From the NCBI GenBank assembly GCA_020725805.1, contig DYEF01000005.1:1-36683 (forward strand): a stretch of DNA of 36,683 nucleotides, in the 5' to 3' direction. Made by a program: the position numbers and the translations under genes. The notes below the pieces were generated by a model. It saw only the letters and a list, made by a program, of their open reading frames with translations. It made no database searches and was not told where the DNA came from. The DNA is from Bdellovibrio sp. (lineage in GTDB: Bacteria; Myxococcota; SpSt-1050). Within the stretch, counting starts at the first letter, position 1; every line of letters starts with the position of its first letter. Shown piece after piece: positions 7,915-36,433 of this stretch.

Positions 7915-7943
7915 TTGACATTATCTGCCAAATATGTTAGGAT
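7915..7943 (+). promoter_or_regulatory. Sigma70-type promoter of the Cys-repeat lipoprotein
   Basis: A perfect -35 TTGACA (7915-7920), a 17-base spacer and -10 TAGGAT (7938-7943) precede the lipoprotein. Transcription would start near 7950, just before the AAGGAGGA ribosome-binding site. This rules out the in-frame ATG at 7934, which lies inside the promoter. Confidence 0.7.
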
Positions 7944-7972
7944 TGCTACCAATTGTTTTTCAAGGAGGATTT

Positions 7973-8452
7973 ATGAAGAGAATGCTGTTTGTTTCCTTTT
8001 TCTTTGTTTTTATCCTTTCGTTTATGGGATTTGGTTGTGATTCTAGCGGGGATACAGGAAATTCTGATGCCGCTACAACCGCTGACACCGGAGGAAATAA
8101 TACAACGCAGGATACAGGGACTGGTTCAAATTCGACCTCCTGTCAGGAAGAGTTGTGTCCGGAATCCTGTCCAGCAGGCTATTGTAAATCCTGTATTTCA
8201 ACAGGTCAGTGTGTAAATGATTGTTCTGGAAGTCATTGCACTATGGAGTGTAAGAAAGATGGGGATTGTCAGTTTAGCTGCAGCGGCGGATCCTGCACAA
8301 TTAACTGCTCTGGAAACTCCAATTGTGAAGCAAGCTGCTCAGGTGGCAATTGTAAATTCAATTGCACTGAAAATGCAAACTGCGTATTCTCCTGCTCAGG
8401 TGGGAATTGTACACCAAACTGCAATACAAAAGGAACCTGTGAAAATATCTAA
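7973..8452 (+). CDS. Small lipoprotein with four 19-residue Cys repeats
   Basis: The 159-residue protein has a lipoprotein signal peptide with the lipid-anchored Cys at position 22 (GFGC). A low-complexity Asp/Thr/Gly/Asn linker follows to about residue 57, then a Cys-rich domain. From Cys80 to residue 155 the domain consists of exactly four 19-residue units of pattern C-x(3)-C-x(4)-C-x(3)-C-x(4). The last three centre on SCSGG(S/N)C, and the domain closes with C-E-N-I. Shorter Cys clusters (CPESCPAGYC, CKSC) precede it. The start at 7973 follows AAGGAGGA (7962-7969) at the right distance. It is a monocistronic unit with its own promoter and terminator. Function unknown: a disulfide-rich surface protein is likely, and metal binding is possible. 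The linker and Cys style is common in deltaproteobacterial lipoproteins, but I know no named family with this unit. Confidence 0.8.
   Translation: MKRMLFVSFFFVFILSFMGFGCDSSGDTGNSDAATTADTGGNNTTQDTGTGSNSTSCQEELCPESCPAGYCKSCISTGQCVNDCSGSHCTMECKKDGDCQFSCSGGSCTINCSGNSNCEASCSGGNCKFNCTENANCVFSCSGGNCTPNCNTKGTCENI
8210..8437 (+). repeat. Four tandem 57-bp units encoding 19-residue Cys repeats
   Basis: Four head-to-tail units of 57 bases lie at 8210-8266, 8267-8323, 8324-8380 and 8381-8437. Cys positions 1, 5, 10 and 14 are invariant in every unit. The last two units share nearly identical DNA around TGCTCAGGTGG(C/G)AATTGT, which points to fairly recent internal duplication. Confidence 0.8.
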
Positions 8453-29977: not shown

Positions 29978-31117
29978 ATGGCTGACATAAGATTTATACA
30001 GGGGAACGAGGCCTGCGCGCTCGGTGCGATTTATGCCGGATGCAGATTCTTTGCCGGGTATCCGATTACCCCGTCATCCGAAATTGCCGAGATGCTCTCG
30101 GAGGAACTCCCGCTCGTTGACGGTGCATTTATTCAGATGGAGGATGAGATTGCCGCTATGGCAGCAGTAATCGGCGGCTCACTTGCAGGCAAGAAATCGA
30201 TGACTGCGACCTCCGGTCCGGGTATGTCCCTCAAACTCGAAAACCTTGGATATGCCTGTATTACCGAGATACCCTGTGTCATTGTAAATGTACAGAGAGG
30301 CGGTCCGTCGACGGGGCTTCCGACTTCGCCGGCACAGGCGGATATTATGCAGGCAAGATGGGGAACCCACGGTGACCATCCGATAATCGCGGTATGTCCG
30401 TCCTCTGTCTCCGAGATGTTCACGGAGACAGTCAGGGCATTCAATCTTGCCGAGATGTTCAGGACTCCGGTAATTGTTCTCAGCGACGAGATAATAGGTC
30501 ATATGCGCGAAAAGATAGTAATACCAGAAGAGGGTGAGATTCCGATTGTAAACAGGAAGAAGCCAAAAGTAAGTCCCGAGGAATATAAACCTTTTAAGGG
30601 TGAAGAAGACTATGTGCCGCCGATGGCAGCCTTCGGCGAGGGATACAGGTACCATGTAACCGGTCTCTCCCACAATGAAGAAGGATTTCCGATTCAGAGC
30701 GGCGAACTGGTTCATCAGATGAACGTAAGGATGCACAACAAGATTTATAAGAATCTGGACAAGATTCTCAAAAACGAAGTCTATATGTGTGATGATGCAG
30801 AGGTGATAATCTTTGCTATAGGAGGGAGTGCGAGGTCCTCGAAAGGGGCAATAAGACACCTGAGGGAAGAGGGAATAAAGGCAGGACTCTTCAGGCCGCT
30901 TACTATATGGCCGTTTCCGGAGGATGAACTCAGGAGAGTCTGTTCGAAGGCAAAGAACGTCCTTGTAGTTGAGATGAATCTCGGACAGATAGTCTTCGAG
31001 GTGGAGAGGGTGCTCGGCTGCACAGGTGTCAGGGTCGACGGATTGTTTGACTCTTCAGGAGAGCCTTTTACGCCGCTCTCTGTTGCCAACCGCGTAAAGG
31101 AAATTATAAAGAGGTGA
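29978..31117 (+). CDS. korA: 2-oxoglutarate:ferredoxin oxidoreductase alpha subunit
   Basis: The 379-residue subunit has the thiamine-diphosphate pyrimidine-binding domain. GNEACALGAIYAGCRFFAGYP and ITPSSEIAEML are the usual start, followed by the catalytic-Glu region MEDEIAAMAAVIGGSLAGKK and TSGPGMSLKLENLGYA. The second half holds a transketolase C-terminal-like domain (EVIIFAIGGSARSSKGA). The specificity for 2-oxoglutarate over pyruvate or 2-oxoisovalerate is inferred from subunit order and from the sucCD neighbours. A single A separates the korD TGA from the ATG. Confidence 0.92.
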   Translation: MADIRFIQGNEACALGAIYAGCRFFAGYPITPSSEIAEMLSEELPLVDGAFIQMEDEIAAMAAVIGGSLAGKKSMTATSGPGMSLKLENLGYACITEIPCVIVNVQRGGPSTGLPTSPAQADIMQARWGTHGDHPIIAVCPSSVSEMFTETVRAFNLAEMFRTPVIVLSDEIIGHMREKIVIPEEGEIPIVNRKKPKVSPEEYKPFKGEEDYVPPMAAFGEGYRYHVTGLSHNEEGFPIQSGELVHQMNVRMHNKIYKNLDKILKNEVYMCDDAEVIIFAIGGSARSSKGAIRHLREEGIKAGLFRPLTIWPFPEDELRRVCSKAKNVLVVEMNLGQIVFEVERVLGCTGVRVDGLFDSSGEPFTPLSVANRVKEIIKR

Positions 31118-31121
31118 AAAT

Positions 31122-31943
31122 ATGGGAGTTAATTACCACGAGTATTTGAGAGAGAAGATGATGCCGCATATCTGGTGTTCGGGCTGCACCCACGGGATTG
31201 TGACCAAGGCACTGATAAGGGCAATCGATAAGGCAAAACTCGACAAGAACAAGGTTGTGGTTGTCTCCGGAATAGGATGTGCCTCGAGAATGCCGGGCTA
31301 TCTGGACTTCAACACACTCCATACGACTCACGGACGTGCCCTCGCATTTGCAACGGGGGTAAAACTCGCAAATCCGGATCTGCATCTGATCGTTGTGTCG
31401 GGTGACGGAGATGCCGTTGCAATCGGCGGAAACCACTTCATACACGCCTGCAACAGGAATATCGATATGACGCTTGTGGTCCTGAACAACAATATCTATG
31501 GTATGACAGGCGGGCAGAGGTCTCCCACGACTTACGAGGGAGATATCTCCTCGACGAGTGTTTACGGTTCGATAGGCAGTCCGGTAGATGTGGTGAATCT
31601 CGCCCTCGGTGCAGGCGCCACTTTTGTAGCCAGAACGACGAGTTATCACGTCCAGCAGCTGGAGAGTTACATATATTCCGGGATTGTGCACAAGGGATTC
31701 TCTGTTATCGATGCCGTCTCCGCCTGTTACACAGCCTACGGCAGGAGAAACAAGCAGAGGTACAAGAGTTCGGTCGATATGCTGAACTATATGAAGAACA
31801 ATTCCGTAAATATCTCGGCCGCAAGGGAGAAGAACCCGGATGAACTGAAGGGGAAGATTATTGTCGGGATATTCAGGGACAGCATAGAGCCCGAATATTG
31901 CGAAGAGTACAGCAAGATGGTAAACAAGATCAAGTCCAGATAG
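31122..31943 (+). CDS. korB: 2-oxoglutarate:ferredoxin oxidoreductase beta subunit
   Basis: The 273-residue subunit binds the diphosphate of thiamine through GDGDAVAIGGNHF with the following LNNNIYGMTGGQ, the GDG...N motif. The N-terminus has WCSGCTHGI, the CxxC segment usual for beta subunits, and GIGCASRMPGYLDFNTLHTT is the conserved oxo-acid-site stretch. A C-terminal tail of about 40 residues is richly charged. The ribosome-binding site GAGGTGA overlaps the korA stop codon. Confidence 0.93.
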   Translation: MGVNYHEYLREKMMPHIWCSGCTHGIVTKALIRAIDKAKLDKNKVVVVSGIGCASRMPGYLDFNTLHTTHGRALAFATGVKLANPDLHLIVVSGDGDAVAIGGNHFIHACNRNIDMTLVVLNNNIYGMTGGQRSPTTYEGDISSTSVYGSIGSPVDVVNLALGAGATFVARTTSYHVQQLESYIYSGIVHKGFSVIDAVSACYTAYGRRNKQRYKSSVDMLNYMKNNSVNISAAREKNPDELKGKIIVGIFRDSIEPEYCEEYSKMVNKIKSR

Positions 31944-31956
31944 AAAGGAAAGAGGT

Positions 31957-32493
31957 ATGTCTTCAAGATATGAGATTAGATTGTCCGGATCCGGTGGTCA
32001 GGGTCTGATTCTTCTGGGAATCATTCTGGGAGAGACCGCCTCCATATACGAAAACAAGAATGCCGTTCAGTCGCAGTCCTACGGTCCCGAGGCAAGGGGA
32101 GGAATGAGCAAGTCAGACGTCATTATATCGGATGAGGAGATTGACTATCCCAAGGCATATAATGTCGATTTCCTTCTTGCCCTGACCCAGCAGTCTTTCG
32201 ACCGCTACACCAGAGAGGTCAAAAAGGGAGGAATCGTCCTCTATGATTCGACACTCGTTCACTCGCCCAGGGAAGGTGATTACAGACTGATTGGCCTTCC
32301 CTTAAACGATACGGCAATAAAGGATATCGGCAAGTCAATGGTCATAAACATCGTCTCGCTCGGTGCAATAGTAAAGATTTCAAACATTGTTACAATCGAA
32401 AACACAGAGAAGGCTCTCTTAAAAAGGGTTCCCAAAGGGACCGAAGAGCTCAACAAAAAGGCATTTTATGCAGGAGTAAATCTGGCAAAATAA
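31957..32493 (+). CDS. korC: 2-oxoglutarate:ferredoxin oxidoreductase gamma subunit
   Basis: The 178-residue protein is the gamma domain of 2-oxoacid:ferredoxin oxidoreductases: [19 protein letters not shown] at the start and [18 protein letters not shown] in the middle are its fingerprints. It completes the four-subunit complex. It begins 13 bases after korB, and ndk follows after a 19-base gap with a good GGAGG site. Confidence 0.92.
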
Positions 32494-32512
32494 GAATTTA
32501 CCGGAGGTTTTT

Positions 32513-32935
32513 ATGCTGGAGAGAACACTGGGTATCGTCAAGCCGGACGGTATCAGAAGAGGACTGATTGGTGAAATCCTGAAACGAATCGAGGACTCGG
32601 GTCTCAGAGTTGTGGCTTTGAAAATGAAACAGCTTACGCGCAGTGAGGCAGAGGGTTTCTATTACGTCCACAGGGAGAAACCGTTCTTTAATGACCTTGT
32701 CGATTTTATGACGTCAGGACCCGTGGCGCTGTTCGTCCTCGAGGGAGAGAATGCCATCGAGAGATACCGCCGTCTGATGGGGGCGACCGACCCCAAGAAG
32801 GCCGAGAAAGGGACGATCAGATCAGACCTTGCCGAATCAATGCAGTGCAATACCGTACACGGTTCTGACGGACCGGATACAGCGAGATTCGAGATATCGT
32901 ATTTCTTCGCTGCAACAGAAATCGTCAAGAGGTGA
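32513..32935 (+). CDS. ndk: Nucleoside diphosphate kinase
   Basis: The 140-residue enzyme transfers the gamma phosphate between nucleotides. It shows [12 protein letters not shown] at the start, [17 protein letters not shown] and the phospho-His116 in NTVHGSD. In the first of these blocks Gly precedes ATDP where Asn is common, a minor change. The length is typical. Placement after the succinyl-CoA and oxoglutarate genes would let it equilibrate whichever nucleotide the synthetase makes. The stop is overlapped by the ribosome-binding site of rlmN. Confidence 0.96.
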
Positions 32936-32938
32936 GAG

Positions 32939-34057
32939 ATGAAACCTTCTATGATAAGACCGCCGGTACTCTCCGAAAAGAGAAATATCAAGTCGATGAC
33001 ACTCAGGGAAATAGAGAGGCTGATTACCTCGAAGGGAGAGAAGAGATTCAGGGCATCCCAGTTCTTCAAGTGGCTTCATTACAAGGGGGCACTCTCCTAC
33101 GACGAGATGACGGATATCCCGCGCGCCCTCAGAAATACGATAGCGGAATACAGCCCGATAACGAGACTCGAGACAGACAAGAAGGTCGTTTCGAAGGACG
33201 GGACGATAAAATACCGCTTTAAGACGGCCACGGGTCATTTTGTTGAATCCGTCTACATCCCCGAGAAAGGAAGACAGACGGTCTGTGTATCCACACAGGT
33301 AGGATGCAAAATGGGTTGTGATTTCTGTCTTACGGGGAAGATGGGCTTTGTCAGGAATCTCGGCACAGACGAGATTGTGGACCAGATAAGGGCGATAGCC
33401 TCCGACCTCAGGGCATCCGGTGCTGGAGCCGAAGAGTCACAGAAGAAGGTTCGTTCACCTCACAGGGGACTTATTACAAATGTAGTCTTTATGGGTATGG
33501 GCGAACCGCTCGACAACTTTGCCGAGGTAGTAAGGGCGGTCGAGATACTGACACACCCCGAGGGTTACGGATTCTCCCACCGTCATATAACCGTCTCCAC
33601 GGTAGGGCTCGTCCCCGAGATGATAAAATTTATCCACGAGGCAAATGCAAAACTTGCAGTCTCCCTCAATGCAACCACAGACGAGGTCAGAAGCAAGATT
33701 ATGCCGATAAACAACAAGTACCCCATTCAGATGCTTATAGATACCACACATCAGCTGCCGGTCAAGAGGGGCGACAGGATTACTATAGAGTATGTAGTCA
33801 TCAGGGATATCAATGACTCGGTTATGGATATGAAGAGGCTTGTAAGGCTTGTCTCGACATTCCCTGCAAAGATAAATCTGATTCCGTACAATCCGAATCC
33901 GCTCTCGCAGTATCAGGCACCGTCCAAGGAACTTATGATGAAGCTTCTCAGGATTCTGACAGATAACAATATAACAGCAATAATAAGGGCGAGCAAGGGG
34001 CAGGATATAATGGGGGCCTGCGGCCAGCTTGCCATAATGGAGGAGGGAAAAGAATGA
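32939..34057 (+). CDS. rlmN: Dual-specificity rRNA/tRNA adenine C2-methyltransferase
   Basis: The 372-residue radical-SAM enzyme methylates C2 of A2503 in 23S rRNA and A37 in some tRNAs. The radical-SAM cluster ligands are Cys123, Cys127 and Cys130 (CKMGCDFC). The GMGEPL motif and the resolving Cys361 in GACGQL are present, and Cys361 is the residue that takes part in methyl transfer in this family. ATG 32939 follows the ndk stop; an internal Met five codons later is less well placed. Its ATGA end overlaps mtnP by four bases. It has no metabolic tie to the rest of the operon that I can see. Confidence 0.95.
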   Translation: MKPSMIRPPVLSEKRNIKSMTLREIERLITSKGEKRFRASQFFKWLHYKGALSYDEMTDIPRALRNTIAEYSPITRLETDKKVVSKDGTIKYRFKTATGHFVESVYIPEKGRQTVCVSTQVGCKMGCDFCLTGKMGFVRNLGTDEIVDQIRAIASDLRASGAGAEESQKKVRSPHRGLITNVVFMGMGEPLDNFAEVVRAVEILTHPEGYGFSHRHITVSTVGLVPEMIKFIHEANAKLAVSLNATTDEVRSKIMPINNKYPIQMLIDTTHQLPVKRGDRITIEYVVIRDINDSVMDMKRLVRLVSTFPAKINLIPYNPNPLSQYQAPSKELMMKLLRILTDNNITAIIRASKGQDIMGACGQLAIMEEGKE

Positions 34058-34932
34058 GCAAAAATATTATCGGAGTAATCGGCGGAAGCGGACTCTATCA
34101 GATCGAAGGGCTGAAGGTAAAGGAAGAGAGAAAGGTAAAGACGCCGTTTGGCAGTCCGTCAGACTCGTATATCCTGGGTGAACTGAACGGGGTTGAGATG
34201 GCATTTCTGGCACGACACAGCAGGAAACACACAATCCCGCCGCACCAGATAAACTACAGGGCAAATATCTACGGATTCAAGCTTCTGGGTGTTACCAAAC
34301 TCATCTCTGTCTCGGCGGTAGGTTCGATGAGGGAGGATATAAAGCCATCGCATATGGTAGTCCCGTATCAGTTCTTCGACCGAACGCTGATGAGGGCGCG
34401 CACATTCTTCGAAGATGGAATAGTTGCACACGTATCGATGGCAGATGCTGTCTGCAAATCGCTTGCACACCTGATAGCGCATGCGGTTCGCAGGGAGAAT
34501 CTTACGGTTCACGAGGGAGGGACATATATCTGTATAGAAGGTCCTACTTTCTCAACAAGGGCAGAGTCTGAGATATTCAGAAAATGGGGAGTTGACGTAA
34601 TAGGAATGACAAATCTGCCAGAGGCGAGACTCGCCCGCGAAGCGGAGATCTGCTATGCAACACTTGCCCTCTCGACGGATTATGACTGCTGGTACGAGAA
34701 TTCAGAGGATGTAAATGCCGTTATGGTTATCGAGATAATGAAGAAGAATGTAGAGAACGCAAAGAGAGTCATCAAAAGGCTCATTACAGAGATAGACGCT
34801 GATGAGAATTGCAGCTGCAACAATGCACTTGCGAACTCTATAGTTACCTCCGAAAAGAATATCTCACCTGCGGTGTATAAAAGACTCAGACCAATAATCG
34901 GGCGGTACGTAAAACCTCAGAGAAAGAAATAA
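34054..34932 (+). CDS. mtnP: S-methyl-5'-thioadenosine phosphorylase family enzyme
   Basis: The 292-residue nucleoside phosphorylase shows GVIGGSGLYQIEG (phosphate loop), RHSRKHTIPPHQINYRANI, EGPTFSTRAESE, GMTNLPEARLAREAE and a late Asp in STDYDCW, all normal for the methylthioadenosine/purine nucleoside phosphorylase family. The usual role is cleavage of methylthioadenosine for methionine salvage. Because its neighbour is a UbiA-type prenyltransferase, cleavage of an aminodeoxyfutalosine-like intermediate in menaquinone synthesis is an alternative, offered as inference. It overlaps rlmN by four bases. Confidence 0.88.
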   Translation: MSKNIIGVIGGSGLYQIEGLKVKEERKVKTPFGSPSDSYILGELNGVEMAFLARHSRKHTIPPHQINYRANIYGFKLLGVTKLISVSAVGSMREDIKPSHMVVPYQFFDRTLMRARTFFEDGIVAHVSMADAVCKSLAHLIAHAVRRENLTVHEGGTYICIEGPTFSTRAESEIFRKWGVDVIGMTNLPEARLAREAEICYATLALSTDYDCWYENSEDVNAVMVIEIMKKNVENAKRVIKRLITEIDADENCSCNNALANSIVTSEKNISPAVYKRLRPIIGRYVKPQRKK

Positions 34933-34936
34933 CAAT

Positions 34937-35971
34937 ATGAACTTTTCAATGTGGAAGAAGGCACTCCTCGTAATCCCGAGGATTGAGCCCGAAGAATTCA
35001 GAAAACTCGATGTGGTTTCCAAGTGGCTGATTATCACAAGGGCGGCTGTTCTTATAATGACATTCACCTCTGCTGCCATAGGCGGGATTCTGGCGGCAAA
35101 AGACGGTATGTTCGACGGACTCTACTTTATAATCTGCACCATAGGACTGATTCTTGCACACGCCACAAACAATATGGTCAACGACTTTACAGACTATATA
35201 AAGGGGGTTGACAAGGATAATTACTTCCGTACCCAGTATGGTCCTCATCCGCTCGAACAGAATCTGATGGATAAAAAGGAGTTTATGCTCTATCTGGGCA
35301 TAACCGGCCTGATTGCCCTTCTGTGCGGGATTTATCTCGTATATGTGAGGGGGAATGTGGCTCTGTATCTGCTTCTTTGCGGCATATTCTTCGTCCTCTT
35401 CTATACATTTCCTCTCAAGTACATAGGTCTCGGGGAGATTGCGGTCCTTCTGGTATGGGGTCCGCTTATGACGGCGGGGACATATTTTATCACGAGCGGG
35501 AGTCTGAGTTACAATGTCGTGATTGCATCTATCCCCTATGCCATAGGGACGACAACTGTGTTATTCGGGAAACACATAGACAAGTATGAGATGGATAAGG
35601 CAAAGGGGATAAGGACGCTCCCTGTGCTGATAGGCGAGAATGCCTCGAGAAGGGCTGTTATATTCCTGATGGTATTCGAGATTTTCTTCGTAATCTATCT
35701 TGTACTCAATGGATATTTCTCCGTTATTATGCTCCTTGTCCTCTTCTCCCTCGGCACACTGAGAGAGGCGATAAAGGCATATCTCGAGCCGAAGCCGAAA
35801 GAGAGACCCGAAATATGTCCGCCGAATATATGGCCACTATGGTTTGTGGCAATTGCCTTTTATTTCAACCGTCGATTTGGTCTCTTATTTCTGGGCGGAC
35901 TTCTTCTCGACCTGATTCTTATAAAATCCGGAATCAGAACAGATATATATTCACTTAAAAGTTATTTTTAG
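34937..35971 (+). CDS. UbiA-family prenyltransferase (quinone or isoprenoid lipid synthesis)
   Basis: The 344-residue integral membrane protein has about eight or nine helices and both Asp-rich prenyl-diphosphate motifs: NDFTDYIKGVDKD (about residues 82-94) and DKYEMDKAKG (about 215-224). These identify the UbiA superfamily, which joins prenyl chains to aromatic acceptors such as menaquinone or ubiquinone precursors. The C-terminal ICPPNIWPLWFVAIAFYFNR is a variant tail seen in a side branch of the family. It starts four bases after mtnP with only a weak AGAGAAAGA site. As the last gene of the TCA operon it may supply the quinone for the Sdh complex. I cannot say whether it is MenA, MqnP or another member, so no symbol is given. 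Confidence 0.88.
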   Translation: MNFSMWKKALLVIPRIEPEEFRKLDVVSKWLIITRAAVLIMTFTSAAIGGILAAKDGMFDGLYFIICTIGLILAHATNNMVNDFTDYIKGVDKDNYFRTQYGPHPLEQNLMDKKEFMLYLGITGLIALLCGIYLVYVRGNVALYLLLCGIFFVLFYTFPLKYIGLGEIAVLLVWGPLMTAGTYFITSGSLSYNVVIASIPYAIGTTTVLFGKHIDKYEMDKAKGIRTLPVLIGENASRRAVIFLMVFEIFFVIYLVLNGYFSVIMLLVLFSLGTLREAIKAYLEPKPKERPEICPPNIWPLWFVAIAFYFNRRFGLLFLGGLLLDLILIKSGIRTDIYSLKSYF

Positions 35972-35984
35972 TCTCAAAGAAGAG

Positions 35985-36057
35985 AACACCGGGTCATCCT
36001 TCCCGGCGGTCCGCAAGTGTTAGCGTCTCTATGTAAGGCTGACTTTCACCCGGGGTT
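35985..36057. other. Structured intergenic element with long-range stem and competing hairpins
   Basis: The arms AACACCGGGT (35985-35994) and ACCCGGGGTT (36048-36057) pair at nine of ten positions across about 53 bases. Inside, GTTAGC (36019-36024) pairs with GCTGAC (36038-36043) with one G-T pair, leaving a 13-base loop. CCGGG (35989-35993) can instead pair with CCCGG (36002-36006) around an 8-base loop, which excludes the outer stem. The element lies between convergent genes. It has no T-run immediately after it, so a plain terminator is not obvious. I match it to no RNA family I know. Confidence 0.5.
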
Positions 36058-36100: not shown

Positions 36101-36433
36101 TTACAATTCGAGCATATCTTCCTCAGATAAATCACCGCGAGTAGTATCGAAGCAGGAGCGGCAGAGATAAGTGCAGTAGTAGGATTTTTTATTTCTTATT
36201 GTGAGTTCGGCATATTCGGCAAGCCTGTTTGGTCCGCAGATTGTACATTTTGGAATAAATTGCTTTTTTGCAGCTATATACCAGCAATTATTCACGAAAT
36301 CGAAGACCTTCTTGAATCTGGTGGTTTTAATTTTCAGGTCTTTAATAATCTCTTCGTCTACAATATTGAAGTAGACCATATCTGTATTGTTGTCTGCCTT
36401 TATAATCTCAAACAATTTGTAATAGTGAATCAT
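36101..36433 (-). CDS. Small zinc-ribbon-like protein of unknown function
   Basis: The 110-residue protein has no signal peptide or membrane helix. Residues about 63-96 hold two Cys-pair knuckles, CTICG and CTYLCRSC, separated by about 25 residues, suggesting a zinc-binding or Cys-cluster domain. The N-terminal half (Lys/Asp/Val/Ile-rich, KLFEIIKADNNTDMVYFNIV) is not recognised. It has its own promoter and a GGGAGG ribosome-binding site before the ATG at 36433, and converges on the sdh operon. A DNA- or RNA-binding role is possible but unproven. Confidence 0.7.
   Translation of the reverse strand: MIHYYKLFEIIKADNNTDMVYFNIVDEEIIKDLKIKTTRFKKVFDFVNNCWYIAAKKQFIPKCTICGPNRLAEYAELTIRNKKSYYCTYLCRSCFDTTRGDLSEEDMLEL

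Follow-up and report, generated by a model that had tools for sequence, protein, structure and literature searches.

A two-copy, stem-bounded repeat of roughly 70 bases in the genome of a Bdellovibrio sp.

The DNA analyzed here (hereafter, the window) is a complete contig of 36,683 nucleotides, C111 of a Bdellovibrio sp. genome of 3.29 Mb (115 contigs, 97.9% complete). On the + strand, a run of genes (29978-34932) begins with three 2-oxoacid:ferredoxin oxidoreductase-type genes (29978-32493), followed by genes for a nucleoside diphosphate kinase, an RlmN-like radical SAM protein and a PNP_UDP_1-family phosphorylase. The TCA operon named in a sequence-only reading of this region is thus mixed. 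Next comes a UbiA-family prenyltransferase gene, which matches the MenA-type and other prenyltransferase models of NCBIfam, none of them over the cut-off; the element that is the subject of this work starts 13 nt past this gene (Table 1). The 110-aa open reading frame (ORF) on the other side of the element has no match in Pfam (E <= 0.001) or NCBIfam (E <= 0.1); that it binds zinc via its CxxC pairs is a guess. Two other genes of the window also lack a Pfam match, namely an 866-aa ORF (399-2999, + strand) with recurring C..x..DW stretches and a 172-aa Cys-rich protein (7934-8452, + strand) in which a lipoprotein-like leader is followed by repeats of a CSGG-C pattern, both patterns having been recognized by eye. 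At the contig end (36637-36677), there are two copies of CTTCAGCACT (mean in shuffled sequences, 0.04), and this end also matches C5:340-366, which reads CCTTCAGCCTTCAGCACT, and C10:2088-2123 (E = 9e-4 and 0.002, respectively); a dispersed repeat at this point may have ended the assembly there.

Table 1 Coordinates of the element, its parts and the adjacent genes in the window.
Feature	Position	Strand	Remarks
UbiA-family prenyltransferase gene	34937..35971	+	Pfam UbiA, E 1.8e-32; immediately precedes the element
Terminator-like hairpin, 7 pairs, loop 8, T-rich tail	35975..36008	-	Terminator scan
Stem-bounded element, 73 nt, window copy	35985..36057	+	Sister copy G000:C70:40199-40271, minus strand
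Left arm of outer stem P1, AACACCGGGT	35985..35994	+	90% complementary to 36048-36057
Competing local hairpin, CCGGG (35989-35993) / CCCGG (36002-36006)	35989..36006	+	Window copy only
Hairpin P2	36001..36016	+	6 pairs in the C70 copy; 4 pairs and two mismatches in the window copy
Stem P3, GTTAGC/GCTGAC (36019-36024 with 36038-36043)	36019..36043	+	Conserved 13-nt loop GTCTCYATRTAAG
Right arm of outer stem P1, ACCCGGGGTT	36048..36057	+	Pairs with 35985-35994
110-aa ORF with two CxxC pairs	36101..36433	-	Convergent to the UbiA gene; element between them

The outer stem, which the sequence-only reading had described as near-perfect over 10 bp, is present, with 9 of the 10 positions of the two arms complementary and 53 nt between the arms, and so is the second stem that it had placed inside the first (P3). 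The local CCGGG/CCCGG hairpin was likewise seen in the window copy, where it and the outer stem are mutually exclusive because the left arm is common to both. As for the contrast in base composition that had been claimed for the block, the element is GC-rich (57.5%), but the next 120 bases (41.7% GC) are close to the window as a whole (42.9%), so that the flank on this side is ordinary and not specially AT-rich.

Taken by itself, the pairing of the window copy is at chance level. Folding of the 73-mer gave z = -0.09 on the + strand and z = -1.26 on the - strand (91 of 200 and 23 of 200 shuffles, respectively, were at least as good), and addition of 20 bases on each side gave z = -0.07 and -0.95. 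Pairs of 10-nt arms that form 9 or more Watson-Crick pairs across a distance of 20-100 nt number 128 in the window; at the exact spacing of the element, there are 3 such cases in 36,610 positions, the element included. The minus-strand hairpin with its tail (34 nt) appears better (z = -2.06; 14 of 500 shuffles as good), for a stretch that was picked after the terminator scan. The observation as a whole is partly confirmed, and it is the sister copy on contig C70 alone that makes the element more than a chance palindrome.

This copy is the one credible further match in a sequence search of the same genome (C70:40206-40264, minus strand; E = 3.1e-8, 80% identity over 59 nt); 12 more matches reach E <= 10, but these span 14-32 bases each and have E values of 0.69 or worse. 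When extended to 73 nt, the two copies align without gaps, and only the core is similar (47 of 59 positions identical, columns 8-66): the outer arm positions are identical in 2/7 and 1/7 cases, and the flanks in 15/60 and 19/60. Hence, the similarity stops inside the P1 stem, where the copies have no more than the innermost GGT/ACC and one additional pair in common. Nevertheless, the outer 7 positions of P1 form 6 Watson-Crick pairs in each copy, compared to 1 and 2 after the arms are swapped between the copies; pairing of 6/7 at the P1 spacing is reached by 57 of the 36,610 window positions. The CATCCT stretch at the putative junction and the loop of P3 are invariant between the two copies. 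These copies were used to build a structure model (R1), with which they score 96.6-97.3 bits (high by construction); the model detected no third copy in this genome at E <= 10, and core patterns allowing up to 3 mismatches detected none either (as a control, a reversed pattern produced 1 chance match). Given a shared core and arms that differ in letters yet are complementary at equal spacing, we conclude that there is a real but modest two-copy, stem-bounded element of roughly 70 bases.

Both copies are intergenic but their cis settings differ. The window copy lies 3' of a gene, whereas the C70 copy lies between divergent genes of the Ldh_2 and CinA families, in the same orientation as the Ldh_2 gene, whose start lies about 320 nt downstream. 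Close sampling is thin, with one congener (G001) and one order-mate (G002), and neither contains a copy by BLASTN, the structure model or the core patterns. In the congener, UbiA and Ldh_2 have conserved counterparts (proteins 78% and 88% identical, respectively), the DNA beyond these genes on the side of the element is unmatched at both loci, and the gene that follows UbiA differs from the 110-aa ORF. Since the similarity to the congener ends beside both copies, it reveals no clean empty site, a point against the mobile explanation, and no orthologous position either.

Searches of more distant genomes revealed no credible copy. BLASTN against 57 other relatives gave matches at E <= 1 in 32 of them; among those listed, the matches span 15-53 bases, with a best E value of 0.009, and were taken as chance. 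Similarly, among 96 other relatives searched with the structure model, 13 matched weakly at E <= 1 (25.7 bits and E = 0.013 for the strongest), and these matches were taken as chance without being aligned singly; 194 other genomes of the phylum (195 searched, overlapping the 96) had none at E <= 0.01; both of these model searches used stricter filters, under which weak matches may be lost. In species-representative contigs, a strict core pattern had 0 matches and a loose one 26 loci, none of which, by eye, carries the rest of the element. Four patterns run over viral contigs gave 0, 6, 7 and 2 loci (15 in all), none convincing to the model. The sole model match in the 26 loci and 6 viral loci taken together (L065; 17.4 bits, E = 0.084) was rejected, as was the one match over the last 9 viral loci (13.9 bits, E = 0.24). 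BLASTN with the window copy against plasmids and phages gave no match. Thus, among the genomes, viral contigs, plasmids and phages searched, the element is known from its own genome alone, and the recurrence that the sequence-only reading had asked about amounts to the minimum of one further copy, in that same genome.

The sequence-only reading had offered a structured RNA as one of two interpretations, and the comparison of the two copies bears directly on this possibility. A three-helix structure (P1, P2 and P3), drawn from the two sequences themselves, has 90.9% of its cells paired and five pairs changed on both sides, one in P2 and four in P1, that is, 4 of the 10 P1 pairs; when the partner is slid by 1-3 columns, at most 52.4% are paired, with one double-changed pair. 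Among shuffles, 22 of 500 attain the observed values, and two sequences permit little better. Covariation is therefore present in the outer stem, in an alignment of two sequences that is too small for statistics of the R-scape type. The RNAalifold consensus is better than that of column-shuffled alignments on the window + strand (z = -3.37, 3/1000; z = -3.21 in a first run), more so than on the - strand (z = -2.39, 24/1000; first run, z = -2.30), and the one change in P3, from G-C to G-U, retains pairing on the + strand. The C70 copy also folds well alone (z = -3.53, 1/500, for 73 nt; z = -2.63, 3/200, for 80 nt). These observations would fit a lineage-specific structured non-coding RNA, read from the window + strand as a three-way junction of P1, P2 and P3 with the 13-nt loop, and acting in trans.

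However, the significance of the consensus fold resides in P1, given that the signal disappears from the inner part alone (z = -0.64, 229/1000; z = +0.91 on the other strand). Furthermore, the two copies disagree in their ensembles. In the C70 copy, the standard pairs of P1 and P2 have probabilities of 0.75-1.0 on the + strand and P3 has only 0.08-0.09, whereas in the window copy P3 reaches 0.47-0.73 on the + strand, P2 is at most 0.04, and P1 is disfavored (0.07-0.15 alone, 0.00 with 15 or 40 flanking bases). This disagreement leaves P2 and P3 unproven and argues against an alternative-fold switch shared by the two copies. Because P1 and P2 of the C70 copy can be seen on the minus strand as well, the strand of a putative RNA is weakly decided. 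The element was also not found in the congener, the order-mate or Rfam, and has no fixed relation to neighboring genes. Its covariation in P1 is that between two copies of one genome, with no credible homologue in the 96 relatives or the 194 genomes of the phylum (overlapping sets). All told, we consider such an RNA unlikely, although not far-fetched. A more specific version, in which a lineage-restricted small RNA or an element recognized as single-stranded DNA would have a varying but paired closing stem, with the CATCCT junction and the GTCTCYATRTAAG loop as its binding surface, is a speculative candidate and appears distinctly improbable.

The proposal of mutually exclusive folds fares worse. 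The local CCGGG/CCCGG hairpin has a probability of 0.00 in the C70 copy, where it is not conserved, and the outer stem of the window copy drops out once flanking bases are included; a switching RNA is accordingly out. No credible Rfam match emerged at either setting: at the gathering threshold, 4227 models gave 0 matches over the whole window, and a permissive search with the two copies gave 1 and 2 matches, all far under threshold. The best of these, SNORD103 (21.1 bits vs 45, E = 0.046), is a snoRNA model and was taken as chance.

On the window minus strand, the local hairpin is stable in all contexts (probability 0.97-1.0 with 0, 15 and 40 flanking bases; on the + strand, 0.83 alone, 0.00 with 15 and 0.32 with 40). 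There, a terminator scan found a 7-pair site (36008-35987) with the tail TTCTCTTCTT, located downstream of the ORF at 36101-36433. The description of the locus as unlike a simple terminator is thus weakened by this hairpin and its T-rich tail, although the tail is imperfect, being interrupted by C. The anatomy suggests that this site probably ends transcripts of the 110-aa gene. Could it be that this is all there is, that is, a simple intrinsic terminator of that gene on the minus strand, with the outer pairing a coincidence? The likeness to intrinsic terminators extends to the hairpin and tail of the window copy, but leaves unaccounted for the conserved core and the copy on C70, where the hairpin does not form; in addition, the scan of the 884-base region yielded 2 sites compared to a shuffle mean of 0.7 (sd 1.0). 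We regard this explanation as unlikely.

The core might also be what is left of a formerly coding sequence or of a larger mobile one. Both copies share an 18-codon frame on the minus strand that ends in TGA, its differences at columns 34, 49 and 55 are, by eye, at silent third positions, and 9 of the 12 core differences are transitions. On the other hand, a stop just before the frame closes it in the C70 copy, most of the remaining core differences are non-silent, a 20-aa query had no match in plasmids, and the argument is post hoc and involves few sites. Such an origin is very unlikely.

A shared core with private, self-complementary arms fits an element that carries its stem or enters palindromes, as well as a structured RNA whose closing stem is free to vary. 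Between these, low copy number, inconsistent cis setting and absence in the congener favor a sporadic, repeat-like element, and the most plausible assignment is to a low-copy, probably once-mobile, stem-bounded repeat. Under this explanation, to which we tentatively attach a probability of roughly 0.45 in its full form, the two dispersed intergenic copies belong to a DNA repeat of roughly 70 bp that arose by copying or insertion and probably represents a small mobile palindrome of the non-autonomous type; the element would either carry its end stem, kept paired by compensating changes, or have been inserted into pre-existing palindromes, and would now be mostly inert, with the hairpin of the window copy serving as a terminator. 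Several observations count against this account. The copies are few for a mobile family, and it is the ends of the element that changed between them, whereas the ends of mobile elements are normally conserved between copies. No transposase link was found in a search limited to Y1_Tnp. The terminator step, moreover, is not common to the C70 copy and involves an interrupted tail. Of the ideas in the sequence-only reading, the mobile-palindrome-like one is modestly supported and a switching RNA is not; the interpretation as a whole is partly supported.

If the element is a minor repeat, this accounts for the odd GC-rich block and illustrates how a stem that looks like chance in one copy becomes recognizable through a single sister copy. 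If it proves to be transcribed as an RNA, a lineage of which few members have been sampled would have yielded a new, small class. For general biology, little follows until more genomes of the genus exist.

Several known systems invite comparison. Riboswitches can be set aside because the cis position differs between the copies (after a gene in the window, upstream of the Ldh_2 gene on C70); the core motifs of the hammerhead ribozyme were not seen by eye, and no tRNA or tmRNA was detected at either locus; a tRNA-like element was likewise rejected. MITEs have terminal inverted repeats of the same sequence across copies, at odds with the scant identity of the outer arm positions noted above. The C70 copy does have an exact 10-bp direct repeat at its ends (CACCTTAAGG; only 5 bp in the window copy), but the arm is self-palindromic, so that the repeat is no proof of target-site duplication. 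Integron attC sites are imperfect palindromes of 57-141 bp in which structure matters more than letters, with the R'/R'' consensus RYYYAAC ... GTTRRRY. The element is an imperfect palindrome of comparable kind, but no R'/R'' boxes were seen by eye at its ends. The search of this genome for an integron integrase gave 4 matches (frames of 299-300 aa, on C60 and C17; best, 77.4 bits vs a cut-off of 265), and has to be read as one that had no positive control, considering that matches turned up in all 14 control genomes without ever passing the cut-off.

REPs and REPINs resemble the element in being short, intergenic, hairpin-forming and dispersed within one genome. REPs are described as 20-40 bp in length with a terminal GTAG or CGTC tag (PMC3733652), and as usually exceeding 100 copies per genome (PMC2817692). 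The element, by contrast, is 73 bp long and present in two copies in 3.29 Mb, and neither copy has GTAG or CGTC at its ends (CGTC occurs in the window copy only internally, at 36024-36027 in the P3 region). As to an associated RAYT, the single Y1_Tnp gene found in the genome (on C60) lies in a 1926-bp locus that shares no 11-mer with the window copy. Another kind of dispersed sequence is the low-copy stem-loop families of bacterial genomes, described as defined within 40 genomes (Cozzuto et al. 2008, PMC2267715). The element has only two copies and is likened to these families by their description, not by sequence; as repeated intergenic sequences with a common predicted fold, they are, on that description, the closest known kind to the element.
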